A program made the translations under genes and the position numbers. Shown piece after piece: positions 18,616 through 47,532 of a stretch of DNA of 64,000 nucleotides; position 1 is the stretch's first letter; each line of letters starts with the position of its first letter. The notes beneath the pieces were generated by a model. The model saw nothing but the letters and a program-made list of their open reading frames with translations. It did no database searches and was not told where the DNA came from. The DNA comes from Lysobacteraceae bacterium NML93-0793 (GTDB lineage: Bacteria; Pseudomonadota; Gammaproteobacteria; Xanthomonadales; Xanthomonadaceae), in assembly GCA_002324875.1 (NCBI GenBank), contig NTJG01000009.1, forward strand, positions 62,001 through 126,000, read 5' to 3'.

Positions 18616-18719
18616 AAGAGCCCTCTCAATGGTTGATGAAAAGAACACCTGCTCCGAGACAATGAGTACTGGTAGCTGCGGAGCGCTTGGATAATCAGTG
18701 ATGCACAACGGTTGCAGCG

Positions 18720-26928: not shown

Positions 26929-29900
26929 TCAACGCAAGCGTCCGGACACCAATACTGCATACCCCCAACCACGGGCACGGACACCCGGCGCCAGGCCTTG
27001 ATCTGTCAATTCAGGCCTGAATCTGACAACGGCACTGACCTTCAGATCCGCATCGGGAGCGCCGACATCATGTTTCCTGGCCAGGAAGCCAACCTGTCGC
27101 CTTTGCCCGCTGCGTCCCTGGTGCATGAAGGTCTTGTTGAAACCACCGCCACGCCCGCCGAGGATGATGCGATCCCCAACCACCACTTCGGTTTCGATGT
27201 AGCGTTGCAGAGCATCCTGGTCGGTTTGATAGGCGTTGTTGATCATTGACCAGCCCAGCGACACATCTTCCATCGATCCGGTCAGCACACGCCCATCCGT
27301 GGAGCTGCCTTCAAACGGCACTGGCACGCTGCGGCCCCAACTCAGCTCGCGGTCACCACGGAAGTAATCCAGGCGCCGCTTTGCACGTGTCATCCCCACA
27401 TACAGCAAGCGGGCTTCTTCACAGGCATCACCCGCCAAATCCGCCTCCTTCCAGCGACTGGGTGCTTTCCCGAAAGGAATCGACGAAGGAAGTATCAACA
27501 CATTGTCGTATTCCAGACCCTTCACCTTGTGCAAGGTGGAGACAACAGCCGTGGTTGCACCCTCTTCCAATCCGGACAATCGAACCAGCTCATCGGTCTT
27601 GAGCTCTTCAACAAAGCGGATCAGCGAAGACAAATAGGGAAAGGACTGCTCCCGACAGCACAGGGCCCAAAGATGGTCGAGATCGACATCCACAGAAGCC
27701 GGCGCGCTCCATTCCGGAATACTGGCCCGCTGCAGCATCGTCTGGCGGACACGCTCACGCAGCTCATCGGTCAACTTTTCATCGAACTGCTCGGCCGCAT
27801 CGCGCAGACAATCCAGCCAGACAGCCACATGGCGAAGATCTGCAATGTTCAGATTGGCTGCGCCCTGGATGGCCAGATGGGGGAAATGCTGACTGAGCCT
27901 TCTGTGCGCATCAGCCACCTCGGCATTGGAGCGGCACAGGACAGCCGTTGTCTGACCCGGAACAGACAGCATCTCCCGCAACAATGGGATGGAAGACTCC
28001 ACAGCATTGCTCCAGCTTCCGCCTTTCCAGTCAATACCTCGACATGTACCCTCAATCGCCGCGCCACGCGCGCGCAGCCTTCCCTCCTTCAGTCGTCTTG
28101 ATCGATCAGTACGTTTGAAGAAACCCGTTATCATGTCCTGACTGCGCTCCACAATCAGGCTTCCCGACCGGAAGTTGACCGCCAGCAGGTGCTTGCTGAA
28201 ATTCTCTCCGCCGAAGTCCCTCTCGAAATCATCGAAGTATTTTTCCGAGAAGTTGGGAGCACCATTTTCCTTTCTGTTCCAGCGCAGGATGTCCTGGTCA
28301 TCATCACCGATGACCATCACACCAGCCTTTCGATCAGTCCCTTCATACAGGCTGCGGATGATCGAATAGACCCCATCGTTCATATCCTGGAATTCGTCCA
28401 CCAGGATGCAGCGGGCACCAGCTGCCACGCGCACGGCAAAGGCCGGATCACTGGCAAGACGCTTGGCAAAGACGTCCACAACGTTGGACATCTCCACACC
28501 CGTCAGATCCACACTCTCACGTGCCAATGAGCGCAGCGCAAAAGAATGGAAGGTAAAGACGCGCAGACGTCCCACATAGGACGCATACCCCAGTGACTTG
28601 AACAAGTCTCGGATACGCCGGCGGATTTCGAACACCACTGCCCTGTTGAATGCCAGAACCACGATCTGCGACGGATCAACGCGATGCTCTCGAATGAGGT
28701 GAGCGATTCGCCCGACGAGCACGAAGGTCTTGCCGGCCCCCGGCCCGGCATTGACCAGGATATTCTGGTCCGCCGGCACACTGGACACGGCCCACTGGGC
28801 AGGCTCTTCGGATGTCCTGAATCGATCGAAGAACTCGGTTGCCTTGGTCGCACGCACCTTGTCGCGCATACTGGACAACAGCATCGACCCACCCGCGGCA
28901 TCGTCTCCGTCCAGTATCAGCTCTTCCAGCTGCGTGCCCAGGAATGCCTTGACCTCTTCGGCATTACGGGTCTTGAAATATCCTGTGATGAATGCTGTTT
29001 GCGCCTCCACCTTGAGGTTGGCGAACACCTCCATCGCCAGGTTACGTGCTTCGGCAAGGTCGTTGACCTGCTTAAGTTCCTCCCAGACTTCCTCGTGATC
29101 TTCCATGCTGGCCGGACCCGGGGAAATGGCCACTATGTGCGAGGGTGGCACCAGATCAGAAACCATACTGGCCAGTCCCGTTGCTGACATCAGACCTGCC
29201 AGCTTCTTCAAATCCGAATCGCGGAAGCGACGATCCTCGTACAGGGCACGCACCTGATCCACCGCATCAGCCAGACTGATCTGATGTTTGTCACCAATGA
29301 CACGTCGCAGGGCCCTAATCCCCCTGACATAACACTCACGTCGTTCATTGACTTTCCACCTCAACTTCTTGGGCATCTCCGCTTCCCAGAGAAGCCTGCC
29401 ATCGGTCTTGATCAACTGCCGGGTCTTGATGCCAGAAGCTCGCGCCAGATAACGGAAGCCATTGATGAAGGAGCGCTCATAGGCCCTGAGTGACTTCTGG
29501 TCTACCTTCGGCCCTTCTAGGTCCTGGACCATCTCAAAAGGATTGAATTCCAGCCGGCCGCTCTCTGAAAGACGCCGCAACAACTCCTCGACAGCACCGT
29601 CGATATAGGCGATCTGTTTTTCAATCAGCTCTGGCGTCTCTTTGGAAAGCCAGCGGGGAACCACATCCAACACCCGGCTGAGAGACAAACCGCCTCGTCG
29701 CTCCAGATCCACCAGCATGGCCAGAACCGTGCTCAACGGCCTCAGCTCACTGTCATGCAGCCTCAAATAGGAAAGGTTGAGAACGATGCAGCGATCGCAA
29801 ACGCTCTTATCCTCATCCGCTCCATTCAACCAGCTGTCAAAAGGATCCTGTTTTTCCTGCCTTTTCTGCGTTCCAAAGAAAGTTCCGACAGACTCCATCA

Positions 29901-32900
29901 AGGCTGAAAAGATGCTGCTCACTGCCTCAATAGCGCCGTATAGAAGCCCGCTGTCGGATACCCGGTTGGCACTTTGATGCTGCACTTGATCAGCAGGCAG
30001 ATAAATATCTTCGTCCGGCTTGATTGACAGAATGCGGCCCGCCAGTTCCGCCAGATCACCTGATTCGGCAGCAATGCGGGTCAACACGGAAACATTCACC
30101 ATCATCGACATCAGATCGGGTGATGTACCGCATAGCTTGCTCAACTTCGCCCGCTCCAGCCAGTACAACTGCATGCGCACACGTGTAGCTGCCGCACGGC
30201 GGGCACCATCGGTCATTGCGGGAGGACCGTAGCCCTGCTCGGGCACCACCACCATCTGCTGGCCCTTCACCCGCTGACTACGCTTCTTCAACTCATTAAG
30301 GAAATTCTTAACGTCACCACGGGAGATGGCGCTGCTTGCACGCATAGTACGGATGCTGCCAAAATCTTCCTCCGAAAAAAGCAAGCGGGCAGTCAGCTTC
30401 TCCAGTCCGGCACGGTCACGTTCCTTCTGACCACGGCCGATGCGTCCCACTTCCTGCAGGTAGTCTTCCAGATAGCCCGGTGGCCCCAAGTGGATCACCC
30501 AGTGGATATCAGGAATATCCATACCCATGCCGAAGGCCTTGGTTGCCACTAGGACATCCAGCCCTCCTTCCTGATCACGCCCGCCGTCCAGGAAGCGGGC
30601 GTAGATCTCCTCACGCGTACCGGCATCCAGACCGGCGTGGTAGTAGTCCACCTGACACTGACAGATTTGGGCCAATCGCTGGGCCAGCATTTCGGCCTGC
30701 CTGCGGCTGAAGACAAAAACAATCACCGCACTGCGCTGACCCGTATCAACACGATTGGCCTGCGCCTGGCTGATGGCTTGCTGAATATAGGGGAGCCGCT
30801 CGACAAGGGCCTGCTCGAACTCACGAAGATTGTTGATATCCCCCACCACCGGTTGCGGCACCACCTGGATATGCGAACGCAAGGGGTTGGAGAACTTCTC
30901 CATCTGCGGTCTTACCACCAACGGCAGAGGCGAGCTGGCATCTCTCCTCTCGCCCCCCAGCAAGGCTTCCAGTCGTTCCTTGTCGGTCGTGGTAACCGTG
31001 GCCGAAAGCAGCAGGAACTGCGTGCGCTCGCCCTTGTCCATGTGCTGGCACTTTTCCAACAGCACCTGCAGTGCGTGGAAGTAGTCCGGGCGGAACTGAT
31101 AGCCCCACTGGTTCACACAGTGGGTTTCGTCAAAGACCACGTGTTCCAGACCGTTGTCGGCCTTCATGCGCTTGTGCAGCACATCCAGAAAGACTTCACT
31201 GCGCAGTCGCTCGGGGGCGACATAGAGCAGAACGATCCGATGATCGAGAATGCCTTGGATGATCTCCTCCAGTTCGCCGCGGGTCAGGTCGCTGTTGATG
31301 AAATCCGCAGACTCGGCAAACCCCTGCTCACGCAGGCGCTCGACCTGATCCCGCATCAACGCTTTCAATGGCGACAGCACCAGGGTCAGGCGTCGATTGC
31401 GCAGACCGCGGCACAAAGCCGGCACCTGGAAGAGCACTGACTTGCCCTCGCCCGTGGGCAGGGGCACCAGCACATTGGCATTGCGCTGGCAGATGACCTC
31501 CATGGCTTGAGTCTGTGACGGTTTGAAGCCAGTCACCGCGTTGCCGGTGGTCGCGTCCTTGGGTTGCCAATGGCGAACCAGGAACTCCTGCATGGCCTCC
31601 AGGCTGGATGGCGCCACCTCACGCTCCAGCTTGAACGGCGCCAGCACCACTTCCAGGGCCTGGACTTTGTCATCAGGCAGCGGCATTTCAGGCAGCCTCA
31701 CCGTCTCGACAAGACCCGAGAGCTGGCTAACCACACCGCTCACGCGCGGATCAATGCAGATCATGGCCTGATCGGCCGCGGCAAGGCCTGTCTGCGCCAT
31801 CCAGGCAAACAGGTGTGCCTTGACCAGCACCGGTACGGCCTCGAGCAATTCCGCTTTGCTGATCACTTTAAGCAGCGCTTGCGGTGCAGCTGTCCCCTCG
31901 GATACATCAAGCTCTGCGTCACCTGTCTTATCCGCTGTCTGAAGCGCCAGCCGGGTTTGTTCGCAGGCATGCCACTGCTCCAGCGGCAGGGCTTCGACCA
32001 CCGGTTGCAGCTCGATTCCGAGTGACTGCCCGTGGGCCTGCCACTGTGACCAGTTTGCCAGCGTATCGACCACCACCCATCCGCGGTCAGCGGCCCGACG
32101 CAGATGTTCACGCTGGCTACGGTGTTCCGGGCGCGACTCGCCCAATCCTAGTTCAGCCAGAGCGGTAGCCAGCATGTCCAGCAAGGTCTTGCTGCCGCTG
32201 CTGCCCACCAGCAGCACACGCACCGCCTGAGCGCCCTGTCCGCCCACGGCATGAACCGTGCGCAGCACCTCGGCCCAATAACTTCCCTGGTCCTCTGCGC
32301 GCGGATGCAGGACATGGAATTGGCGCTTGAGGAACTTCGGCCGCGTCAGAGGTGCTTGGGATCCTGCCGGACTGCACAGCGAGTCCTCGGCCACTGGCAG
32401 CGTGGCAAAGGTTTCCAGACCGCCCTGCGGGTCGAGCACCTCGCCGGCACGATCGGCCAGCAACCATTGCAGGGTCGCGCCGTCGTGTCCCAACTGGATG
32501 AACGATGCGTTGGGGAGATCCGGATGGGATTGTGAAAAGGCAGATACCGAAGCTGTCTGATGATCCAGCAGCAGCACGTCCTGGCTGCGACCAATGACCA
32601 CGTACTGCTCCGGGTCGGCGGCCTGCCACCAGCTCGTCTGCGTGGGCAGGCTGGCCAGACGTGCCCCCTCACGTGCCTGCGGCTGCTTGCAGGCCGCATC
32701 CACGGCCGAGCGCACTGCCGGCTGCCGTTCCAGCAGCCACACCGGCACCATGTTCCGGCGCAAGGCGATGCCCTGCGCTGTGGTGGCACGCGCCACGGCC
32801 AGCAGCAGCTGGGCTTCGGGCACGTGCGCCAGCTCATCGTGCAACTGGGCAGCCAGCAAGTCGGCATCGACCTCCAACCAGTCAAGTGACAGGCTTAGGG

Positions 32901-34674
32901 AAGTATCGGCTGCTACTACGCTTGTACCGGGCACCCAATCTGTTTGACGCAGAAACTCCGCATCGGCCAGCAGCAAGCGCGTCGGAGGATTGCCGGCTTC
33001 ATCGAGGAAGGCCGGTGGCTTGCGCGTCAACTTGATCTTGCCTTCCAGTGCCGGGAGGGCATCGGCCAGCAACTGGGAGAAATCGGCATAGCGGCCCAGC
33101 AACACGCGGGCAGCAATGTCTTCGGGCAGACTCTTGAGCTGCTTCTCGAACAGCTTGGCTGCCGCCTTGGCGTCCTTGTCGGCGTGGTGATTGCTGCCCA
33201 GGGCATGGGAAGCGGACTGCGGCGCCAACAGGTACTCCATCAGAAGCGTGTCCCACAGCAGCGCAGAGCCAGGCATACCCGGCTGCCGGCTGAGGATGGG
33301 CCAATCCCAAGCGATGAGGTTGTGGCCCACCACCAGTGGCGCAACCTGCAGCTTCCCTGCCAGCTCGGCCAGGGCTTGCTCGCGGTCGGTCCCCTTGCGC
33401 TCATCGTGCAGCAGCTGCGCCTGGCCATTGCGGGCGCAACCGATCTCCCAGATGCGCTCGCCGTCGGTTTCCAGGTCCAGGCTCAGTGCTGTACTCAGCA
33501 ACATCGTCTTGCCTAATGTTGGATCCCTTGCCAGCGCCGTCGCCAATGGCTGAGGCTCTTGCCGCCATGTTTGGAGCAATTCGTCCTGCCGCCCCTGCGA
33601 CAACTGATCAAATTGGAAGAACGGAACCCATGAGCTATGACGACTGCACTGTTCCAACTGTTCGTCGGTAAGCTTCTTATTCTCCGCCAATCGTTGCAGC
33701 CAGCCTTCTACAAACGTATCTGGCTCAATCCCTATCTCCAAGTAGCGGCTTGCCAGCACAGCCTCCTTCTCCGTCGTTCCGGGGAAGAATTGCGTCCAGT
33801 ATCCATGCGGCTCAAACAGAGCGCGACTGAGCAGATGCCACTCCAGCAATTGTTGGCATTGCTCCTGGGTCAGACGTGGGTCATCCAGCCATTGGGTACT
33901 GGGCGCCTGCAAACAAGCCAGTTGTTGCGATTGAAACTTCGCCAACAACAACTTGAAATTACAGCCCGGCATCCCTGGCGAGAGAAGCGATATAGACCGA
34001 AAAGAGGAAACACTCAACCAAGAGCTGATTGGCTTGGCAGCCAATTCTTCAGCCGAAAGTTCAGCCAAACGTGACAGTACAACCTGCTGGAGAACAGCAT
34101 CCTCCAGATCGGCAGGAGCGTCCGTGACGCTGGACCACCGTTTGGCATACCAATCTGCACGCACCAGTGACCACAATTGATCCCACGACAGCGCCATCAA
34201 TTGATCGCGTCTGATGCCATCCAGGGATGGCTGATCTGCAATGGGCATTCCAGTCACACCGGCGGCCATGGCGGCCGGCATCCAGGCAATCACGCTCTGG
34301 CGGGAATCGTCCGGTCGCTTGGGATCGCTGCCTATGATATAGAGCACGTCCGTGCCAACCGGCGGCAGTTTCTGTCCATCGGGAAGACGGCCGTCGAAAC
34401 CGCTGACGTGGAAGAAGACATCTTCCTTTGCAGAAGCTGTGATGAAACCAAAGCCGCGTTCTTCCTCCAGCTGCTTCACCTTGCCGATGCACGGCAGGCG
34501 CAAGAGCATCTGCACCGGATTCACGGCAGGGGGCCTCCCGTTGCCGCGGCCTTTGGGATCACGTGGTCTGTTGCGGGGCTTGTCGGATCGTAGCGTATCG
34601 CGGAGAGGAACCCTGGATTCTTCCTGACCCAAGTCCAGACCTAGGGCCCTCAACTGATCCGACAAATCATTCAT
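26929..34674 (-). CDS. Giant cold-shock / DEDDh exonuclease / RecQ-like / UvrD-like helicase fusion
   Basis: 2581 aa. Domains in order: basic, disordered N-terminus; cold-shock OB fold (~58-130: GKVKQLEEERGFGFITA, DVFFHVS); uncharacterised region; DEDDh 3'-5' exonuclease (~395-510: SLDLETDG, GHNLIAWDWPIL, NHHADKDA); uncharacterised region; SF2 RecQ-type helicase (~1055-1450: PLPTGEGKS Walker A, FDETHC, LLLSATVTTTDKE, GMGMDIPDIHWVIHLG); linker; SF1 UvrD-type helicase (~1960-2480: NAGPGAGKT, VDEFQD, GDDDQDILRWN, VNFRSG, TLHKVKGLEYDNV, LYVGMTRAKRRL). All helicase and nuclease motifs appear intact. GC is visibly lower than in flanking genes. It overlaps the upstream DUF3883 gene by ATGA. Likely acts on DNA ends or foreign DNA; the defence role is inference. 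Confidence 0.9.
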   Translation of the reverse strand: MNDLSDQLRALGLDLGQEESRVPLRDTLRSDKPRNRPRDPKGRGNGRPPAVNPVQMLLRLPCIGKVKQLEEERGFGFITASAKEDVFFHVSGFDGRLPDGQKLPPVGTDVLYIIGSDPKRPDDSRQSVIAWMPAAMAAGVTGMPIADQPSLDGIRRDQLMALSWDQLWSLVRADWYAKRWSSVTDAPADLEDAVLQQVVLSRLAELSAEELAAKPISSWLSVSSFRSISLLSPGMPGCNFKLLLAKFQSQQLACLQAPSTQWLDDPRLTQEQCQQLLEWHLLSRALFEPHGYWTQFFPGTTEKEAVLASRYLEIGIEPDTFVEGWLQRLAENKKLTDEQLEQCSRHSSWVPFFQFDQLSQGRQDELLQTWRQEPQPLATALARDPTLGKTMLLSTALSLDLETDGERIWEIGCARNGQAQLLHDERKGTDREQALAELAGKLQVAPLVVGHNLIAWDWPILSRQPGMPGSALLWDTLLMEYLLAPQSASHALGSNHHADKDAKAAAKLFEKQLKSLPEDIAARVLLGRYADFSQLLADALPALEGKIKLTRKPPAFLDEAGNPPTRLLLADAEFLRQTDWVPGTSVVAADTSLSLSLDWLEVDADLLAAQLHDELAHVPEAQLLLAVARATTAQGIALRRNMVPVWLLERQPAVRSAVDAACKQPQAREGARLASLPTQTSWWQAADPEQYVVIGRSQDVLLLDHQTASVSAFSQSHPDLPNASFIQLGHDGATLQWLLADRAGEVLDPQGGLETFATLPVAEDSLCSPAGSQAPLTRPKFLKRQFHVLHPRAEDQGSYWAEVLRTVHAVGGQGAQAVRVLLVGSSGSKTLLDMLATALAELGLGESRPEHRSQREHLRRAADRGWVVVDTLANWSQWQAHGQSLGIELQPVVEALPLEQWHACEQTRLALQTADKTGDAELDVSEGTAAPQALLKVISKAELLEAVPVLVKAHLFAWMAQTGLAAADQAMICIDPRVSGVVSQLSGLVETVRLPEMPLPDDKVQALEVVLAPFKLEREVAPSSLEAMQEFLVRHWQPKDATTGNAVTGFKPSQTQAMEVICQRNANVLVPLPTGEGKSVLFQVPALCRGLRNRRLTLVLSPLKALMRDQVERLREQGFAESADFINSDLTRGELEEIIQGILDHRIVLLYVAPERLRSEVFLDVLHKRMKADNGLEHVVFDETHCVNQWGYQFRPDYFHALQVLLEKCQHMDKGERTQFLLLSATVTTTDKERLEALLGGERRDASSPLPLVVRPQMEKFSNPLRSHIQVVPQPVVGDINNLREFEQALVERLPYIQQAISQAQANRVDTGQRSAVIVFVFSRRQAEMLAQRLAQICQCQVDYYHAGLDAGTREEIYARFLDGGRDQEGGLDVLVATKAFGMGMDIPDIHWVIHLGPPGYLEDYLQEVGRIGRGQKERDRAGLEKLTARLLFSEEDFGSIRTMRASSAISRGDVKNFLNELKKRSQRVKGQQMVVVPEQGYGPPAMTDGARRAAATRVRMQLYWLERAKLSKLCGTSPDLMSMMVNVSVLTRIAAESGDLAELAGRILSIKPDEDIYLPADQVQHQSANRVSDSGLLYGAIEAVSSIFSALMESVGTFFGTQKRQEKQDPFDSWLNGADEDKSVCDRCIVLNLSYLRLHDSELRPLSTVLAMLVDLERRGGLSLSRVLDVVPRWLSKETPELIEKQIAYIDGAVEELLRRLSESGRLEFNPFEMVQDLEGPKVDQKSLRAYERSFINGFRYLARASGIKTRQLIKTDGRLLWEAEMPKKLRWKVNERRECYVRGIRALRRVIGDKHQISLADAVDQVRALYEDRRFRDSDLKKLAGLMSATGLASMVSDLVPPSHIVAISPGPASMEDHEEVWEELKQVNDLAEARNLAMEVFANLKVEAQTAFITGYFKTRNAEEVKAFLGTQLEELILDGDDAAGGSMLLSSMRDKVRATKATEFFDRFRTSEEPAQWAVSSVPADQNILVNAGPGAGKTFVLVGRIAHLIREHRVDPSQIVVLAFNRAVVFEIRRRIRDLFKSLGYASYVGRLRVFTFHSFALRSLARESVDLTGVEMSNVVDVFAKRLASDPAFAVRVAAGARCILVDEFQDMNDGVYSIIRSLYEGTDRKAGVMVIGDDDQDILRWNRKENGAPNFSEKYFDDFERDFGGENFSKHLLAVNFRSGSLIVERSQDMITGFFKRTDRSRRLKEGRLRARGAAIEGTCRGIDWKGGSWSNAVESSIPLLREMLSVPGQTTAVLCRSNAEVADAHRRLSQHFPHLAIQGAANLNIADLRHVAVWLDCLRDAAEQFDEKLTDELRERVRQTMLQRASIPEWSAPASVDVDLDHLWALCCREQSFPYLSSLIRFVEELKTDELVRLSGLEEGATTAVVSTLHKVKGLEYDNVLILPSSIPFGKAPSRWKEADLAGDACEEARLLYVGMTRAKRRLDYFRGDRELSWGRSVPVPFEGSSTDGRVLTGSMEDVSLGWSMINNAYQTDQDALQRYIETEVVVGDRIILGGRGGGFNKTFMHQGRSGQRRQVGFLARKHDVGAPDADLKVSAVVRFRPELTDQGLAPGVRARGWGYAVLVSGRLR

Positions 34675-35096
34675 TCGCTTTCATCCTGGAACATTGCCAC
34701 ATCTACTTCCCACACCACGGCACGGAAGCGTTCCATGTCCAGGTTGGCCATCGTGTCCTGCAACCGCATGACAACCGCGCCGTTTTCACCAGCGCTCAAA
34801 TCAACGCGGTACAACCAAGCATCTCTGGCCAGTTTACGCAAAGTTTCACATTCATTGGCGGTGATGTAGAACTGATCCCTGCCCGTGTCTGTGGTCTTGA
34901 CTTCCATGCAGTGACGCTCGCCATCCCACTCAGACAGCAGGTCATAACCGGTCCGGAGCGTTGCGTCAGGACTGTCCGCTTTTGGCCGAAAGCCGTCGCT
35001 TAGATCCTGCGAATTACCGCCGACCTGCAGATGTCTGGGCTCGCTTCTAGTTATCAGCCCCCGTCTCCAAGCGTTGCGATCCGCGGTCCGTTTGCA
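34671..35096 (-). pseudogene. DUF3883 (NO VEIN C-terminal, PD-(D/E)xK-like) protein, 5'-truncated
   Basis: The minus-strand frame is open from just after a stop at 35097-35099 to 34671 (142 codons). It reads GYDLLSEWDGERHCMEVKTT, QFYITANECETLRKL and WLYRVDL, the core of DUF3883, whose E-V-K resembles a restriction-nuclease active site. The first ATG (34907) falls inside this core, and no GTG or TTG start is available upstream in frame. The true N-terminus therefore seems lost. If translated from 34907 only 78 aa would be made, but translation through it could still couple to the helicase gene. Confidence 0.65.
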
Positions 35097-35642: not shown

Positions 35643-36599
35643 ATGCATTTGGTTGAGACAATGGCCTATGCCGGCGATCGGCCATGGCACGGGCTTGGCA
35701 ACAAGCTGGCACCGAAGCAGTCGATCGACGTCTGGCGCAAGCAGGCGGGGATGGACTGGGAGATCGAAGAGTCCGAAGTTCGTTACGTCGTCGGCAGGAA
35801 CGGCATCGGCTCGATCAACGCCTTTCCGGCGCAGAAGGTGCTGTACCGCTCGGACAACCACAAGCCGCTGTCGGTGGTGTCCAAGCGCTACCAGGTGGTG
35901 CAGCCCGGCGAGATCCTCGAGTTCTACCGAGATCTGACGGAAGTTGGAGGCTTCGAGCTTGAGTCGGCTGGCGTGCTCCGCGAGGGGCGTAAGTTCTGGG
36001 CGCTGGCCAAGACCGGACAGAGCACCGTCCTGAAGCGGAGGGACCGCGTGGATGGCTATCTGTTGCTGGCGACGGCCTGCGACGGCACCTTGGCCACAAC
36101 GGCCCAGTTCACCTCGGTCCGGGTGGTCTGCAACAACACGCTGTCCATCGCCCTGGGTAGCAACGCCGGGGCCGTGAAGGTGCCCCATCGCAGCCAGTTC
36201 GATCCCGACGTGGTGAAGCGCCAGCTCGGGATCACCGTGGCCACATGGGACTCGTTCGTCGCCCGCATGAAGGCCTTGGTCGACTGCCCCGTGGATCCCG
36301 ACTCGGTCGATGGTCTGCTTCGTCGGGTGCTCACCTATCCGAACCCGGACGGGGAGGGCGTGGCGGTCAAGGAGCAGGCGTTCAGGACCGCTCGCGCCCT
36401 GTACGACGGCGCAGGCAAGGGGGCCGAACTGGCGAGCGCCAAGGGAACGGCTTGGGGAGTGCTGAGCAGCGTCACCGAGTTCGTCGACCACCATCGGCGT
36501 GCCCGGAGCGACGATCACCGCAGGGATGCGGCGTGGTTCGGTGCAGGTGCCCAGATCAAGCAGCGCGCGTGGGATGAAGCGCTCAAGCTGGTGGCCTGA
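35643..36599 (+). CDS. DUF932 phage/plasmid-like protein
   Basis: 318 aa, the family's usual size. Conserved blocks: MAYAGDRPWHGLGNKL at the N-terminus, VVSKRYQVVQPGEILEFYRDL, CDGTLATTAQFTSVRVVCNNTLSIAL and TWDSFVARM. DUF932 proteins are typical of plasmids, phages and integrative elements and are of unknown function. First gene of a plus-strand module with yqaJ- and radC-like genes; good AAAGGAG site upstream. Confidence 0.9.
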   Translation: MHLVETMAYAGDRPWHGLGNKLAPKQSIDVWRKQAGMDWEIEESEVRYVVGRNGIGSINAFPAQKVLYRSDNHKPLSVVSKRYQVVQPGEILEFYRDLTEVGGFELESAGVLREGRKFWALAKTGQSTVLKRRDRVDGYLLLATACDGTLATTAQFTSVRVVCNNTLSIALGSNAGAVKVPHRSQFDPDVVKRQLGITVATWDSFVARMKALVDCPVDPDSVDGLLRRVLTYPNPDGEGVAVKEQAFRTARALYDGAGKGAELASAKGTAWGVLSSVTEFVDHHRRARSDDHRRDAAWFGAGAQIKQRAWDEALKLVA

Positions 36600-36602
36600 G
36601 CG

Positions 36603-36920
36603 ATGGCAGTCGATCGTCTCGATGTGGCCTATATCGCCATCGGTGCCAAGCAGGTCCTCGACAAGAGCCTAACCCCCTATTCGGACATGCCTTTCAAGGG
36701 GGAGCGGGGCTATATCCAGGCCTGCATCGACCAGGTGGATCTGCTGGGACGGACTTGGCAGGAATGCAGCGAGATGTTTCCAGGCCTGTGGTGCTACGAG
36801 GTAGCGGAGCCCTTCGGTCAGGCTTTTGGCCGGCATCTGCTGGCAGGAGGGTCCGTTGATCTTGCCCCCGCCATCCTGGATCGCATCGTTGCCACCGCAA
36901 TGAAGGTCTCGCCGGCCTAG
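36603..36920 (+). CDS. Hypothetical protein of the DUF932/YqaJ module
   Basis: 105 aa, starting 3 bp after the DUF932 stop. Acidic, soluble, no transmembrane segment; blocks such as KGERGYIQACIDQVDLLGRTWQEC and GLWCYEVAEPFGQAFG. I do not recognise a family. Tight spacing argues that it is co-translated with the DUF932 protein. Confidence 0.75.
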   Translation: MAVDRLDVAYIAIGAKQVLDKSLTPYSDMPFKGERGYIQACIDQVDLLGRTWQECSEMFPGLWCYEVAEPFGQAFGRHLLAGGSVDLAPAILDRIVATAMKVSPA

Positions 36921-36958
36921 AAGCCAGCACTCGTCAAGCCGTTCAGCAGCAACCCATA

Positions 36959-36987
36959 GGCCCGGCCTCCGAAAGGAATGCCGGGCC
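36959..36987 (+). promoter_or_regulatory. Leader hairpin before the YqaJ gene
   Basis: GGCCCGGC (36959-36966) pairs with GCCGGGCC (36980-36987) around a 13-base loop, 20 bp before the yqaJ-like ATG; TTTGGAG follows as ribosome-binding site. Confidence 0.6.
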
Positions 36988-37008
36988 GTCTTCTTTGGAG
37001 AAACCGTA

Positions 37009-37986
37009 ATGAGCAGATCACCGGCATTGCGCCTGATCGACACGCGCGAGATGGCGCGTGAGGAGTGGTTGGAGGTTCGCAAGCGGGGAATCGGCAGTTC
37101 GGACGCCGCCGCCGCAGTGGGCTTGTGCCCTTACAAGAGCCAGCTGGAACTGTGGATGGAAAAGACCGGCCGGGTCGTTCAGGACGAGGAGCCGGGCCAG
37201 GACTCGCCCATGTACTGGGGCACCTTGCTGGAGCCCTACGTGGCCTCGGCCTACACGGAGCGGACAGGCGTCAAGGTCCGCCGGCTCAACGCCGTCCTGC
37301 AGCACCCCACCTACAGCTACATGCTGGCCAACATCGACCGCGAGGTCGTGGCCAACCCGCACGTCCAGATCCTGGAGTGCAAGACGGCCGGGGAGTTTGG
37401 ATCACGTCTGTGGCGCGACGGCGTGCCCGAGTACGTCCAGCTCCAGGTCCAGCACCAGCTGGCGGTCACGGGCAAGGATGCCGCCGACGTGGCGGTGCTG
37501 CTGTGCGGCCAGAAGCTGGAGATCCACCGGGTCGAGCGGGATGAGGAGATCATTTCCCGCCTGGTCGTGCTGGAAGCCCGGTTCTGGGAGTACGTCACCC
37601 AGGATGTCCCGCCACCGGCCGACGGCAGCGAATCGGCCGCCAAGGCGCTCAGGAGCCTGTACAGGGGCAATGACACCACAGTGGACCTGAGGGAGGACCG
37701 GGTGCTCTCCGAGGCCTTCAGGGATCTTGTCGCGCTGAGGGACGAGATCGAGGAGAAGGCCAAGCAGGCCGAGGGCCTTCGCCAGCAGCTGCAGGAGGCG
37801 ATGGGGGAAGCCTCGAAGGCGGTGTTCCCCACCGGTGAGATTACCTTCCGCCGGTCCAGGGACAGCTCCAGCGTCGACACCAAGAAGCTGGCCGAGGCGC
37901 ACCCCGAGCTCGTTGCCGAGTTCACTGTCACCAGACCCGGGAGCCGCCGCTTCCGGATTGTCACCCCCTCACCAGAAGGAGCATGA
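37009..37986 (+). CDS. YqaJ-family viral recombinase/exonuclease
   Basis: 325 aa. N-terminal YqaJ domain with RKRGIGSSDAAAAVGLCPY (25-42), WGTLLEP (70-76), Asp110 in NIDREV and the catalytic ECK (123-125), then QLQVQHQL. These are the PD-(D/E)xK residues of lambda-exonuclease-like enzymes that resect DNA ends for phage-type recombination. The C-terminal ~100 residues include a coiled coil (EEKAKQAEGLRQQLQEAM). Overlaps the next gene by 4 bp. No RecT-like annealing protein is obvious, unless the downstream gene serves this role. Confidence 0.9.
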   Translation: MSRSPALRLIDTREMAREEWLEVRKRGIGSSDAAAAVGLCPYKSQLELWMEKTGRVVQDEEPGQDSPMYWGTLLEPYVASAYTERTGVKVRRLNAVLQHPTYSYMLANIDREVVANPHVQILECKTAGEFGSRLWRDGVPEYVQLQVQHQLAVTGKDAADVAVLLCGQKLEIHRVERDEEIISRLVVLEARFWEYVTQDVPPPADGSESAAKALRSLYRGNDTTVDLREDRVLSEAFRDLVALRDEIEEKAKQAEGLRQQLQEAMGEASKAVFPTGEITFRRSRDSSSVDTKKLAEAHPELVAEFTVTRPGSRRFRIVTPSPEGA

Positions 37987-38882
37987 CCATGCTGAAAGGC
38001 CTGGCTATCACGCCGCCCGTGGTTGGGCGGATCTCGATCGGCCGCGTGGTCGAGCGCAACGGCAAGCGGCTGCCGGAGAAGGACGACCAGTTCACCCTGA
38101 CCAGTCAGGTGCATAACAGGGAAGGGTGGATCCTGCACCCGCTCGACGAGGCTCTGCGCAAAGGTGCCGGCGGCAAACTTCAATCGATTCCGGTCCAATT
38201 GCTGTTCGACGACCCGGCGTTGAACCTGAGGGCGGACTACTCCCTGTTCGACCGGAGTACGGGCAGGCCGGTGTGCGTGGGCAATGGAGAGACCAGCCGC
38301 CGGATGGGCAAGGAGGGCGTCACCCAGGAGTCCTGTCCGGGTCCGGACGCCTGCGCGTTCGCCATGGGCGAATGCAAGGCCTATGCCCGGCTCAACGTAC
38401 GGGTGGGGGAGGAGGACGAGCTGGGCAGCTTCGTGCTGCGTACCACGTCCTACAACACCATCCGTACGCTCGCAGCCCGGCTGCAGTACTTCCACGCCGT
38501 GTCGGGCGGCAGGCTGGCCTGCATGCCCCTGGAGCTGAAGCTGCGGGGTAAGTCGACGACGATGAGCTTCCGCTCAGCGATCTACTACGTCGATCTGGTG
38601 GTCCGCTCGGGACTGACGCTGGAACAGGCCATTGCCCAAGCCCGGGAGGTCAACCAGAGCCGCAGGAACGCGGGGTTCGATCAGGAGGCCTTGGACGAGG
38701 CCGCTCGCCGTGGGTTCGCCAATGGAGCGTTCGAGGACTTGGCCGAGGATGTTCCGGCGGTCGTGGAAGAGTTCCACCCGGATAACCAGGAGCCGGGTCC
38801 AGGTGGTCAAGCGCCGAGCAGCGACACCGTCAGCTTGCACGAGCGCCTTCAGAAGAAGGCCGCTCGTGCAGGCACTGCCTGA
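37983..38882 (+). CDS. Putative recombination directionality factor-like / metal-binding protein
   Basis: 299 aa starting at 37983 (ATGACC; a second ATG lies at 37989). Distinct blocks: GRISIGRVVERNGKRLPEKDDQFTLTSQ, LRADYSLFD, VCVGNGE, ESCPGPDACAFAMGECK (a Cys cluster that may bind zinc) and LRTTSYNTIRTLAARLQYF. The layout resembles Bxb1 gp3-like directionality factors, often annotated 'hydrolase or metal-binding protein' in integrative elements. Role inferred from context: the preceding YqaJ exonuclease suggests a DNA-processing pair. Confidence 0.65.
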   Translation: MTMLKGLAITPPVVGRISIGRVVERNGKRLPEKDDQFTLTSQVHNREGWILHPLDEALRKGAGGKLQSIPVQLLFDDPALNLRADYSLFDRSTGRPVCVGNGETSRRMGKEGVTQESCPGPDACAFAMGECKAYARLNVRVGEEDELGSFVLRTTSYNTIRTLAARLQYFHAVSGGRLACMPLELKLRGKSTTMSFRSAIYYVDLVVRSGLTLEQAIAQAREVNQSRRNAGFDQEALDEAARRGFANGAFEDLAEDVPAVVEEFHPDNQEPGPGGQAPSSDTVSLHERLQKKAARAGTA

Positions 38883-42500: not shown

Positions 42501-43724
42501 ATGATGACGTTTACGGAAGAGGACTTCCTGGAGGCTCAGGAGGGGGAGCGAAAGCTCGAGTTGCTATCGCGGGGATGTACTCACCTTCCTAGCGGGAAGT
42601 CTGTAATAACGCATGAATACGATTCGGTGATCTACCTGGATCGGGTAATGAGGATTGCGAAGCGGATCCGATTCTTCAGGGGCGACGTGTGCAAGATGGT
42701 TGCCGGATGGAGGAAGGCTCGCATTGTCCGCCTGAACCGCCTGGGTCACTCGCTTCTGCTGATTTGCAGGCAGTACCGTGCGGTTATAACTGTCGGGATC
42801 GGCAAGGACGAGTGCCCAAGGTTCGGGCACCATAAGTTCCATCCGTATCTCGATGTCGCTCTCAAGGCAGTAGCCGAGGCGGAGGCGTCGATCAATGAGG
42901 CACTGGGCAACAAGGATCATGAACGCCTGTGCACTGCTGTCTCGAATCTGGCAGTCGAGATTCACATCCAAACCAATACCGAGGTCTTTAAGGCTTCGGT
43001 GAGGAACTTCGAACGAAACGCGGAAGCGAAGCTCCGTCGAGCATTGAGCTACCTGGCGAGTCTGTTCGGAAAGCGCTCCCGCCTGCTCGTTCTCCGCGTG
43101 GATCTGTACGTCAGAGAGAAGGACAGGCTATGGAGCTATACACCAGAGGCAGAGGCTGCTTTCGACAAATTCGCGTCTGCCTTGTCCGGCTGCAAGATCG
43201 TTCCAGATGTCCTGGGATGGATGAGCGCACGTGAGGACGGTCTCGAACGAGGAAGGCACTACCACGTGATGGCGCTTCTGGACGGTCATGAGCGCCGCGC
43301 AGGCGTCAACCTGGCCAAGATGCTTGGGGAGTACTGGATGACGGAATGTGTCGGATCAGATCGGGTTGGGAGCTACTTCAACTGCTTTGCATTGGCGAAG
43401 AAGTACAAACATCTCGGCATCGGGACAATTCACTGCTCCGACGCGAAGAAGCTCCTGGGGCTATTCTACGCAACCCGGTACCTGTGCAAGAGCAATGTTC
43501 AGCTCGTCGCGACGGGGGAAGGGTCGCGCAACTTCAGGCGCGGCGTTGTAGACAAGAGCTACGTGCGTCGTGGAGCACCTCGGGTAGGGGGCGACTGTCT
43601 TTCGACTGTAAAGCAAACCCTTTTTGGCCAGATGAGGCAGGTAGCGGCCCGGAGGAGGTCGGTTGATGAGGCTGGGATCCGAGTGGATGCAACAGACGCG
43701 CACGCACATTCGCCATGGCTATAA
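42501..43724 (+). CDS. YagK/YfjJ-domain protein, inovirus Gp2-like putative replication initiator
   Basis: 407 aa. The C-terminal half has LLVLRVDLYVREK, then GRHYHVMALLDGHERRAG with an H-x-H pair like HUH replication initiators, then MLGEYWM, GTIHCSDAKKLLG and FYATRYLCKSNVQL, characteristic of the YagK/YfjJ family. The N-terminal half is not recognised. Start ATG 42501 or 42504 follows GAGAAGGA closely. GC content is lower than the chromosome. Role in replication or mobilisation of the element is inferred. Confidence 0.78.
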   Translation: MMTFTEEDFLEAQEGERKLELLSRGCTHLPSGKSVITHEYDSVIYLDRVMRIAKRIRFFRGDVCKMVAGWRKARIVRLNRLGHSLLLICRQYRAVITVGIGKDECPRFGHHKFHPYLDVALKAVAEAEASINEALGNKDHERLCTAVSNLAVEIHIQTNTEVFKASVRNFERNAEAKLRRALSYLASLFGKRSRLLVLRVDLYVREKDRLWSYTPEAEAAFDKFASALSGCKIVPDVLGWMSAREDGLERGRHYHVMALLDGHERRAGVNLAKMLGEYWMTECVGSDRVGSYFNCFALAKKYKHLGIGTIHCSDAKKLLGLFYATRYLCKSNVQLVATGEGSRNFRRGVVDKSYVRRGAPRVGGDCLSTVKQTLFGQMRQVAARRRSVDEAGIRVDATDAHAHSPWL

Positions 43725-44390: not shown

Positions 44391-45614
44391 ATGTCGAAAG
44401 AAGGCGCCGAGCGAGTTCGGCTATCACCGTTGCTTGAAGCGTGCGCTGATTTTGACGGGCTATTGGAAGGCGGCTCGCGTGAGGTCGCGGATCTGCTGCT
44501 GAGTCTCTGTCTTGAAAGGTCGATCCGCGCCTACTTCCGCGTACCTGAGGGTCTGGTTGCCGTCTCCTACAGACACGTCACAAGAGATTCCGGCCGAATG
44601 CTCTTGGGCCCAGGAAGGGGTGAGATTACGTACAAGCATGAACCAATGGCTTATCGGAGTATCAAGTATGTTGGTCTCGATAAGGTCCACGTTCAGGCCG
44701 TCAGGGATGCCGGATACACAACCATATCGAGTTTTCAGAACGGTGGTCTGACTGTCGTTGAAGAGGGATTGCATCCGATCAGCGTTGAGTACGGTGTCAT
44801 TCGGAAAGACGTGGTCCCCTATTCTCATCGGGTGCTCTTCGGCATGTACTCACTTCGGGAACGGGAGGTTGATCCGATCACCGTATCGCTTCGCGTGACC
44901 GACGTGCTTGTTTCGATTCAAGACGTGGCAACGCTTCGAGACCTGATTGGAAAGCGACATGTCGATGACAAGTGGGGACACCGAGAGGCCGCGCCGAGCG
45001 TATTTCTTGCCTACCGCTTGTCTCAGGATCCGTATGATTTCGACGGGGTGATGAAGGCACTGATTGATGAGGATTCGGAAGGCTTCTTCAATCGAGCCAT
45101 CGCGACCACGATGGCGCGGATCATGAAGATCGACGTCCGGCCAGGTGCGGAGCGTGGAATCGTGGTCGGAAAAATAGCCGACAACGAGATGGAGAAGGAT
45201 TACTCCGATCCGACCTTGTCGAAACGAATGAGCCTCCTGCTTCTTGCAACCGACTGTTGGATCCACGACGAAGCATTGCGCGCCGGGACGGAAGCCCGGC
45301 TAGCCCCAGTCCGCGAGGAAGCCGCCAAGCAACGCGAGTTGTTGTCGCAGAAGCAGCGAGACGAGTTGGATCAGCGTGTTTTTCAGGCCGAGCAGCTGGA
45401 GCGGTCGGCACTTCAGGCACGGCTCAAGATGCCATCCGGGTTGCGGGACTATTTGAGGAGCTTGGGGTTCCGCGCGAACCAGGCGGACCACCTGTACCAC
45501 GTAATCACCCGTACACAGACTGGGCGGAGGCATGTCCAGACTGAAACGGACGCGGCCGCAGCGCGCGTTCTAACAAAGGCACGTCGACTCAGGAACTTGG
45601 GCGACAATAGATAG
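44391..45614 (+). CDS. Unknown 407-aa protein beside the integrase
   Basis: Begins with AGGGAG six bases before ATG 44391. No domain recognised: a mixed alpha/beta body (IRAYFRVPEGLVAVSYRHV, RSIKYVGLDKVHVQAV, HPISVEYGVIRKDVVPYSHR), a C-terminal coiled coil (EEAAKQRELLSQKQRDELDQ) and a basic tail (GRRHVQTETDAAAARVLTKA). Its stop overlaps the integrase 3' end by 26 bp in convergent orientation. Low GC and position as a cargo gene at the element end suggest a transferred gene, perhaps defence-related. Confidence 0.75.
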   Translation: MSKEGAERVRLSPLLEACADFDGLLEGGSREVADLLLSLCLERSIRAYFRVPEGLVAVSYRHVTRDSGRMLLGPGRGEITYKHEPMAYRSIKYVGLDKVHVQAVRDAGYTTISSFQNGGLTVVEEGLHPISVEYGVIRKDVVPYSHRVLFGMYSLREREVDPITVSLRVTDVLVSIQDVATLRDLIGKRHVDDKWGHREAAPSVFLAYRLSQDPYDFDGVMKALIDEDSEGFFNRAIATTMARIMKIDVRPGAERGIVVGKIADNEMEKDYSDPTLSKRMSLLLLATDCWIHDEALRAGTEARLAPVREEAAKQRELLSQKQRDELDQRVFQAEQLERSALQARLKMPSGLRDYLRSLGFRANQADHLYHVITRTQTGRRHVQTETDAAAARVLTKARRLRNLGDNR

Positions 45615-46887
45615 CCCAGTCTCGCATGAGCAACTTCCTGGGTTCGAGTAGGGCATCTCGCGCATAAGCCGCCCGCGTCGAGTCGCTATTAACGTGCGCC
45701 AGCGCCAGTTCTGACACCTCGTCGGCGTACTGGGTCAGGTTTCGTGCCCAATCCTTGAAGCTGCTGCGGAATCCGTGTGGCACGGCGATCTTGTTGTAAG
45801 CCGGATCCAGGTAGCCTGCTCCCCCTCTCTTTATACTGGAGTCGTGCATCCGCTTGACCAAGACACTGAGTGCCATGTCGCTCAATGGGCCTCCCCGTCG
45901 GTTGGTGAACGGATGGGCGTGACCATTCGAGTGTTGGCGTTTAAGCAGCTCGATTGCTGGTTTTGATAGCGGGACGGTATGGTCTCGTCCCCGCTTCATG
46001 CGGCCGGCTGGGATAGTCCACAGTCCTCGTTCGAAATCGATTTCAGTCCAAGTAGCGCTCCTGACCTCATCGGATCGGGCTGCTGTCAGGATCACGAACT
46101 CCAAGGCGCGAGCGGCTTCTGTCTCCTGCGCACGGAGTGCGGTCATGAACTCCCCCATTCGTTCGTAAGGGAGCGAGGGAAAGTGCGTCTTGTTGTGGCT
46201 CACCTTACCCAGCAACGGCTCAAGTGCCTCACTCTTCGCAGGGTTGTCGCCGGTGTAGAGCTTTTTGGCCTTGGCGTAGCGGAACACAGCCGCCAAGTCG
46301 TGGAGCAGCTTCTTGGCAGTGGGGTATTTGGTCCGCCAGATCGGCTCCAGCACGGCAGCCACGTCTTCCACGGTAATGTCCGAGATGAGCCGGTTCCCGA
46401 TGACCGGGAGGACGTACAGGTCCATTCGGGTGCGCCAGCCCGCCTTGGACTTCAACTCGTCCTTGTAGCCGGGAGCCTTGGCTTCAATCGTCTGCTGCTC
46501 GCAGTCTTGAAACGTGCGCATTCGGGCTTGGGCGGCTAGTGCCGCACTCACAGCAGCTTTGCGCTCGGCATTCGGGTCGATCCCTTGGGATACCTTGATG
46601 AGGTACGCAGTTGCCTTGTCGCGCGCAGCCTGTAGGCTGACGATCGGGTACTTGCCGAGGCCGAATTCGCGGCGTATCTGGTTCAGCGTGCCTGGACGCG
46701 TTGGATGGGGTCGGTTGCCGGTGGTGACACGAAGCAGCCAGGACTTCGCGCCGTTCGGAGTCACTTGGATATAGAGGCCCGGAGGTTCGCCGGCCACGGC
46801 ATAGCGGGCAGGGTGCTTCTGGCCGGCCTGAGGCTTGAGCTTTCGAATGGCCAGATCAGATCCGAGCCTTGTTGGGATCCTGGGCAT
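45589..46887 (-). CDS. P4-type tyrosine integrase
   Basis: 432 aa. N-terminal DUF4102 arm-binding domain (about 1-110: GLYIQVTPNGAKSWLLR, FGLGKYPIVSLQAARDKA), core-binding domain, and catalytic domain with Arg271 (TAARSDEVR), His371/Arg374 (HGFRSSF), His398 (ALAHVN) and Tyr408 (AAYAR). All five catalytic residues are present, so it should be active. Reads away from the right-hand chromosome block and marks the right end of the mobile region; the attachment site should lie within 46888-47070. Confidence 0.93.
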   Translation of the reverse strand: MPRIPTRLGSDLAIRKLKPQAGQKHPARYAVAGEPPGLYIQVTPNGAKSWLLRVTTGNRPHPTRPGTLNQIRREFGLGKYPIVSLQAARDKATAYLIKVSQGIDPNAERKAAVSAALAAQARMRTFQDCEQQTIEAKAPGYKDELKSKAGWRTRMDLYVLPVIGNRLISDITVEDVAAVLEPIWRTKYPTAKKLLHDLAAVFRYAKAKKLYTGDNPAKSEALEPLLGKVSHNKTHFPSLPYERMGEFMTALRAQETEAARALEFVILTAARSDEVRSATWTEIDFERGLWTIPAGRMKRGRDHTVPLSKPAIELLKRQHSNGHAHPFTNRRGGPLSDMALSVLVKRMHDSSIKRGGAGYLDPAYNKIAVPHGFRSSFKDWARNLTQYADEVSELALAHVNSDSTRAAYARDALLEPRKLLMRDWAIYCRPSS

Positions 46888-47532
46888 AGCTACCCCCCTA
46901 AATACCCCCCTACGAGCTCTGGATTGTATTGGTTTGCGTTAGGCGGCGCTAGTAGGGTCCGCACGCGCAACTATCTGTGCTGAAAGGAAAAATAGGGGCA
47001 GCCCCCGACTATCCTTGACTAAAGATTCCTTCGCTTGGCGCCTTCCGGGCGCGCCAGAACACACAGGAAAGCCAGCGATCCGTCGCTGGCTTTTTTGTAT
47101 GCGTGTGGTTCGGCTGAGCGGGTTGGCTGGACGTGCACGCGGTGGCGCATGCGGCGAAGCGATCCGGTCGGCGTCACCGGGTGTCGTGGTCTCGCATCCG
47201 ACGCAGTGCTGTGCGAGACGCGTGACCACCCCTCGTGCGCGGCCCCACGCTGCGCGAGCAATGCGTTGTGCGCCGTCGGCCGTTGCGCGCGATGCAGGCA
47301 CCGCTGTGTGGGGTCGTCGTGGCAGTCTGCGTGCAGCCTGCCCACGCAGGGCGCTCGTCATCGCGCAGTGGCGTGAGCCGGTCCGCAACGCAGGACGGCA
47401 TCGCCGTCACGACGGCGCGGTCTGCGCGCTGGAGCAGGGATACATGCTGGCGCAGGCATCGGCACCCGGCACGGGCATGATCACCGATGGCGCTCGAGAG
47501 TGCGCGCCGGCCCGGCAGGCGGACAGCGGCGC
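46888..47532. other. Probable integration junction and non-coding spacer
   Basis: Upstream of the integrase start. Contains a C-run pair (CCCCCC motifs at ~46893 and 46905), an orphan plus-strand terminator (47068-47096), then ~430 bp of GC-rich DNA without a convincing gene before the nucleotide-sugar dehydrogenase stop. No tRNA or tmRNA fragment is visible, so the integration target is unknown. Confidence 0.45.
47068..47096 (+). terminator. Strong rho-independent terminator without a gene
   Basis: Stem GCCAGCGA/TCGCTGGC (47071-47078, 47083-47090), loop TCCG, followed by TTTTTT. It reads on the plus strand, where no gene lies immediately upstream. Confidence 0.85.

Follow-up and report, generated by a model that had tools for sequence, protein, structure and literature searches.

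Many immune effectors of bacteria belong to one major class, proteins that join a helicase to a nuclease, with Gabija, Hachiman, Hna and Cas3 among them. The RecQ and UvrD helicase families both move 3′ to 5′, and in WRN an exonuclease is followed by a RecQ core within one chain. Hna, in which one chain carries an SF2 motor and a 3′-5′ ssDNA exonuclease, is a complete single-gene anti-phage system according to PMC13381803. Exonuclease-helicase chains can also serve repair instead of defence, since S. aureus DinG (ExoDinG), as described in PMC12345164, repairs mitomycin C damage and requires both of its activities to do so.

Here we describe a gene in a 64,000-nt stretch of DNA from Lysobacteraceae bacterium NML93-0793 (contig NTJG01000009.1, positions 62,001 to 126,000; hereafter the window). 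Its predicted product contains, in order, a cold-shock domain, a helical region, a DEDDh exonuclease, a possibly DinG-like region, a RecQ-type SF2 helicase, a linker, a UvrD-type SF1 helicase and a C-terminal beta region. The first-pass annotation had noticed two helicases, an exonuclease and a cold-shock OB fold with intact motifs in one chain; our analysis confirmed this, with the gene on the minus strand. The gene and its parts are as follows.

26929..34674, minus strand (34674 to 26929): helicase-nuclease gene, 2581 aa
34318..34488, minus strand: cold-shock (OB) domain, residues 63-119
33490..34275, minus strand: mostly helical region, residues 134-395 (secondary structure from the model)
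33040..33507, minus strand: DEDDh 3′-5′ exonuclease domain, residues 390-545, with D400, E402, D457, H496 and D501
31645..33042, minus strand: possible decayed DinG/XPD-type helicase region, residues 545-1010
30235..31530, minus strand: RecQ-type SF2 helicase core, residues 1049-1480, with GEGKS at 1075-1079 and DETHC at 1182-1186
27325..28842, minus strand: UvrD-type SF1 helicase core, residues 1945-2450, with GAGKT at 1979-1983 and DEFQD at 2093-2097

The window protein resembles Hna in that an SF2 motor and a 3′-5′ exonuclease are predicted in one chain. In contrast, Hna is given in PMC13381803 as 845 aa long with a PD-(D/E)XK nuclease, while the window protein has a DEDDh nuclease, two motors and a cold-shock fold. 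Likeness to Gabija GajB, DpdF, PsyrT and SngC is limited to the UvrD or RecQ core; the score against the DpdF family is 159.2 bits, far below the NCBIfam equivalog cut-off of 550, and none of the partner genes of these systems was present among the neighbours scanned, which are a part of all neighbours. In the open-access literature we found no paper recognisable as describing the long layout.

We believe, with a probability of roughly 0.55, that the protein is a self-contained, single-protein helicase-nuclease that attacks foreign DNA and is carried as accessory cargo by an integrative element at tRNA-Arg. The cold-shock OB fold and helical N-terminus would hold on to single strands where these are exposed, the motors of RecQ and UvrD type would open and travel along forked, gapped or tailed DNA while removing bound proteins, and the DEDDh exonuclease would digest the freed 3′ strand. 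Here we infer the substrate, the polarity of the motors in this particular protein, their coupling to the nuclease, the sparing of self DNA and defence as the outcome. If the protein does act in defence, its architecture, which combines a cold-shock fold and an exonuclease with two motors in a single chain, would be an undescribed one. If it does not, we would be dealing with a mobile repair enzyme of an unusual kind, whose modules are ordered as in WRN or ExoDinG.

The cold-shock domain was assigned from a match to Pfam PF00313 above the cut-off together with a cold-shock fold, and the exonuclease domain from its RNase H-like exonuclease fold. The RecQ-type core contains the SF2 Walker A and B motifs and motif VI and matches PDB RecQ chains (down to 1.6e-36); it scores below the NCBIfam cut-offs for RecQ orthologues of DNA repair (TIGR01389, 210.3 versus 640.2 bits; TIGR00614, 179.9 versus 219.8). 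The UvrD/PcrA-type core has the SF1 motifs and a fold of two RecA lobes. A Pfam scan of the entire protein matched no family to the helical region 134-395. The structure model of residues 1400-2581 has a mean pLDDT of 64, and consequently the linker and the C-terminal beta region were left uninterpreted.

For both motors the best-matching families are DNA helicases, which argues against an RNA-directed role. In such a role the cold-shock fold would bind RNA and the protein would act on RNA-DNA hybrids or transcripts, a mode of action that is conceivable for the cold-shock-fold proteins in conflict systems of the TOTE-like kind. Cold-shock domains do commonly bind RNA besides ssDNA, a point in favour of this idea. 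Another is a TPR-cold-shock fusion that is a component of TALON systems and common to TOTE, as set out in PMC12458937. However, no TATA-binding or TPR partner was found among the neighbours scanned with Pfam, again a part of all neighbours, and we consider an RNA-directed role quite improbable.

In order to compare the protein with its relatives, we used a protein search in which scoring was confined to the 7,990 candidates with the most words in common and which gave 200 homologues at E ≤ 0.001. Among the 120 homologues listed of these 200, the window protein being one, 112 span 2,340-2,776 aa. An alignment (A1) was made of 19 proteins picked to span the homologue list, including the window protein; their identity to it is 34-71%. 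The long layout is not a one-off fusion, judging from these relatives of ~2,500 residues, which retain it at such identities. Adding the 12 genome loci with a whole gene (of 15 loci found) gave 31 rows, which represent 27 distinct proteins, window protein included, because four pairs are the same protein entered twice. D400, E402, D457, H496 and D501 are identical in 31/31 rows and 27/27 distinct proteins, as are the 19 motor residues checked. Because these catalytic residues are invariant, the exonuclease and both motors look maintained in working order by selection. One relative, in an element resembling that of Stenotrophomonas sp. RAC2 (L010), has a split gene.

G157:C1:3939438-3947125 (L051 9436-17126): split gene of the G157 relative, present as two ORFs (2258 and 299 aa)

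The ~500 residues between the exonuclease and the RecQ core may be a decayed DinG helicase. The top structural match is S. aureus DinG (8zef), over residues 387-997, and D975 and R977 are invariant in 19/19 rows of A1. A canonical, conserved Walker A is absent from the region (GSSGSKT in the window protein, GSSRSKA in P0003). When profiles of residues 545-1045 and 770-1015 were compared with a profile of 23 DinG proteins, the alignments were in order over 213 and 168 columns and extended to D975-x-R977; the scores were equalled by 52/60 and 28/100 column shuffles, so that they are not above those of shuffles, and the real profile (17.2) scored lower than a reversed one (21.5) and than the linker region (18.5). 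For region 545-1010 there was no trusted match in a Pfam search (five families, one member each, best E 0.042) or in a PDB sequence search (one chain at E 0.98).

Alternatively, the protein could be an accessory DNA repair enzyme, a bacterial counterpart of the WRN or ExoDinG exonuclease-helicase fusions that removes cross-links or stalled-fork structures. The order of exonuclease and then RecQ core is that of WRN; the window protein differs in that neither RQC nor HRDC is among its Pfam matches and in its additional UvrD and cold-shock parts. With S. aureus DinG it has in common a DEDDh exonuclease followed by a similarly ordered region, and this enzyme, the closest fold match over 387-997, repairs mitomycin C damage (PMC12345164). 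In contrast to S. aureus DinG, the window protein lacks the canonical Walker A in the DinG-like region and adds RecQ, UvrD and cold-shock parts. An occurrence in ~1/150 to 1/400 genomes and the mobile or defence contexts of the gene are unlike housekeeping repair, and we regard this explanation as unlikely.

The first-pass annotation had stated that RecQ-UvrD fusions exist. This understates the precedent, as the exonuclease-RecQ-UvrD order found in the window protein also recurs in a commoner layout of ~1,700 residues, present in 13/299 genomes of a phylum sample. These ~1,700-aa proteins, named 'RecQ family ATP-dependent DNA helicase', are both plasmid-borne and chromosomal (e.g. Sulfitobacter faviae, Cereibacter azotoformans, Rhizobium ruizarguesonis and Thiothrix fructosivorans). 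Their RecQ and UvrD parts were colinear with those of the window protein in 4/4 cases and the exonuclease part aligned by BLAST in 3/4. Acidic residues 400, 402, 457 and 501 are shared in 17/17, as are the tested motor residues save for gaps at 2388 and 2430 in some; the column of H496, where the alignment is uncertain, does not hold H in any of the 17. The short proteins have neither the cold-shock/helical N-terminus nor most of the ~500 residues that separate the exonuclease from RecQ. The window protein, which has the extra N-terminus and these ~500 residues, represents the long form. A tree of the RecQ region, rooted with a single outgroup, divides the 31 long-form rows from the 17 short forms; the short group has a support of 0.975 and the long group one of 0.435. 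The core layout offers a smaller, testable version of the protein. The four ~1,700-aa proteins inspected (L064-L067) all have, by eye, a C-x4-C-x2-C cluster before the RecQ core, a possible zinc or iron-sulphur site, which the window protein lacks.

The gene sits in a ~61.9-kb element inserted at tRNA-Arg, bracketed by the tRNA-Arg gene (C44:47079-47155) and a 16-nt repeat of its 3′ end. The element features in the window, and a small ORF adjoining the gene, are listed here.

47041..47056, plus strand: right end of the element, 16 nt that repeat the tRNA-Arg(acg) 3′ end (the left copy lies outside the window, at C44:47140-47155)
46892..46915, plus strand: arm-site-like 24-nt direct repeat (other copy at C44:47212-47235; just inside both element ends)
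45589..46887, minus strand: tyrosine integrase of the element
35643..38882, plus strand: element backbone, with DUF932 at 35643-36599, YqaJ recombinase at 37009-37986 and Gp3-like recombination directionality factor at 37983-38882
34671..34907, minus strand: 78-aa ORF with a partial NOV_C (DUF3883), overlapping the helicase start by 4 nt

Relatives G009 and G001 show the empty site, in which the tRNA-Arg gene runs directly into the sequence found right of window 47041; the empty-site evidence is these two, as L041 and L042 show only the flank right of the site and are hence uninformative. The 24-nt direct repeat just inside both ends suggests a single element served by the one integrase at 45589-46887. 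This repeat contains two ACCCCCCTA units, resembling arm-type integrase sites. Given the integrase, the duplicated att site and the empty site in relatives, the gene is cargo of an integrative element, as the first-pass annotation had proposed. The right part of the element contains DUF932, YqaJ, recombination directionality factor, RadC and DUF3987 genes, and the left part metal-related genes (CopB, CopD, a multicopper oxidase and a cation efflux gene); the family-library scan of the element covered ORFs to the right of window position 18,700. By eye, an ORF in the left part resembles an RND pump. Two tandem 407-aa ORFs lie at window 42501-43724 and 44391-45614, the first with a weak, below-cut-off match to YagK/YfjJ_C and the second with none.

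NOV_C domains probably have a nuclease-like fold. The 78-aa ORF matches PF13020 with 38.9 bits (cut-off 22.1) over profile positions 27-82 of 91 (window 34794-34958); it lacks the first 26 profile positions, the N-terminal part of the domain, and is probably a gene remnant. It adjoins the gene in the window only; a search of 14 relatives' genomes found no NOV_C next to the gene. Elsewhere in those genomes NOV_C occurs in 5/14, in G706 ~15 kb from the gene.

It had also been proposed that the protein processes DNA ends for the element. Under this explanation it would be a partner of the element's YqaJ recombinase and of host recombination functions while the element is replicated, recombined or integrated. 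In its favour, the gene in the window, in L010 and in L051 is part of an element that also has an integrase, RadC, YqaJ and a recombination directionality factor, and the DUF932/YqaJ/recombination directionality factor backbone adjoins the gene in both of these relatives. However, the backbone families of the window are common only to L010 and L051 in flanks of up to 10 kb, some ending at contig ends, and to our knowledge most integrative elements manage without such a helicase-nuclease. The third-position GC of the gene (0.679) also differs from that of DUF932, YqaJ and the recombination directionality factor, three adjacent backbone genes (0.83-0.87), though the integrase and DUF3987 (0.70) are close. 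The explanation is thus weakened, and we think it rather unlikely. Composition had in addition been read as a sign of cargo. The difference from the adjacent backbone agrees with this, but three other element genes have values of 0.67-0.70, and composition alone is therefore weak evidence for cargo.

Genome surveys counted matches at E ≤ 1e-100, with centre genomes included among the finds. In the window's own family the gene was found in 2/297 genomes (that of the window and G157, with its split gene), in a phylum sample in 1/398, the carrier being the window's own, and in the family of G709 in 2/295 (the centre G709 and G715, both already-known carriers). The gene is rare, patchy and not core. 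Stenotrophomonas sp. RAC2 and G157 have a 16.9-kb stretch including the gene in common at 91.7% identity, which points to transfer of the element. Among viral contigs, a C-terminal profile found 86 relatives, and the 80 retained of these match inside profile residues 505-1124, a span taken up almost entirely by the UvrD part; two N-terminal peptide patterns of limited reach gave 97 matching stretches, none confirmed. Of 31 phage records with a match none covered 80% of the query, and the 15 listed match the RecQ part only. One of 739 matching plasmid records covers 80% of the query, and the stretch there is annotated as three CDS. On a plasmid of Rhodobacter sp. CZR27 (L063 20031-27432) a relative carries three CDS annotations in a row, for a cold-shock protein, a hypothetical protein and a UvrD-helicase protein, and would be either a split gene or a broken one.

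A bolder version of the defence reading can be put forward only tentatively. It would make the 2,580-residue chain an undescribed single-protein immune machine in which the cold-shock fold is a sensor, the DinG-type part a retired scaffold, and two 3′-to-5′ motors accompany the exonuclease. This machine would be derived from the wider exonuclease-RecQ-UvrD family, which would in turn be a defence family that has gone unrecognised, and integrative elements would have carried it between distant proteobacteria.

The neighbours of the gene were partly scanned at 14 of 17 loci, the window and 13 of the 16 others (L019, L023 and L051 were left out). Recognised defence genes lie near the gene in four of the 14, a description of these loci from which we claim no enrichment. 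L012 has the Druantia III genes DruH and DruE, the latter with its end ~0.3 kb before the gene. In L015, DruE (Druantia III) is ~4.7 kb away and a DrmD-like helicase and a type IIG methylase-nuclease are on the opposite side. L022 has a McrBC component on one side and ZorD (~0.4 kb) and ZorC of Zorya I on the other, and L009 has Mrr directly upstream. The other 10 have none recognised. In the window the scanned neighbours are the element backbone and copper-resistance genes, with only the NOV_C remnant besides; at other loci they are integrases, recombinases, a transposase, regulators, metabolic genes or genes of no assigned role. The anti-phage or anti-plasmid role that the first-pass annotation had suggested is supported only indirectly, by the known systems near some relatives and by the rare and patchy occurrence of the gene. 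The defence reading is favoured by the invariant catalytic residues, the position in a mobile element, the rarity of the gene and the defence neighbours of some relatives; against it count the 10/14 partly scanned loci, the neighbours in the window and the copy in G157 split into two ORFs. The setting fits satellite-borne defence islands, as Druantia III and ARMADA ride satellite-like mobile elements according to a preprint (PMC12458937), in which RecQ has 0 occurrences.

We also counted DruE3 and ZorD1 genes, the former with 5 copies in 4/14 carrier genomes and the latter with 4 copies in 3/15 searched. Of the nine, three lie within 5 kb of the gene, two within 50 kb on the same contig (G703) and four on other contigs (G711); both families were chosen after being seen beside the gene, and the count is consequently a description, not a clean test. 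In three places (G711:C28 and C31; G703:C8) DruE3 and ZorD1 are at most ~5 kb apart, as paired Druantia III-Zorya islands. A conserved partner gene was rejected, since the ORFs directly upstream vary among loci; weakly shared upstream ORFs in L015, L018, L020 and L022 resemble chance or non-coding frames. L009, L013, L014 and L017 (partly L016 and L023) have a recurrent set of a ~690-aa AAA ATPase, with IetA-like matches in L009, a WYL regulator and a ~850-905-aa PDDEXK_1 protein. In L009 and L013 this set, which may be a separate defence or recombination cluster, has an additional ~1060-aa protein, UvrD-like in L009.
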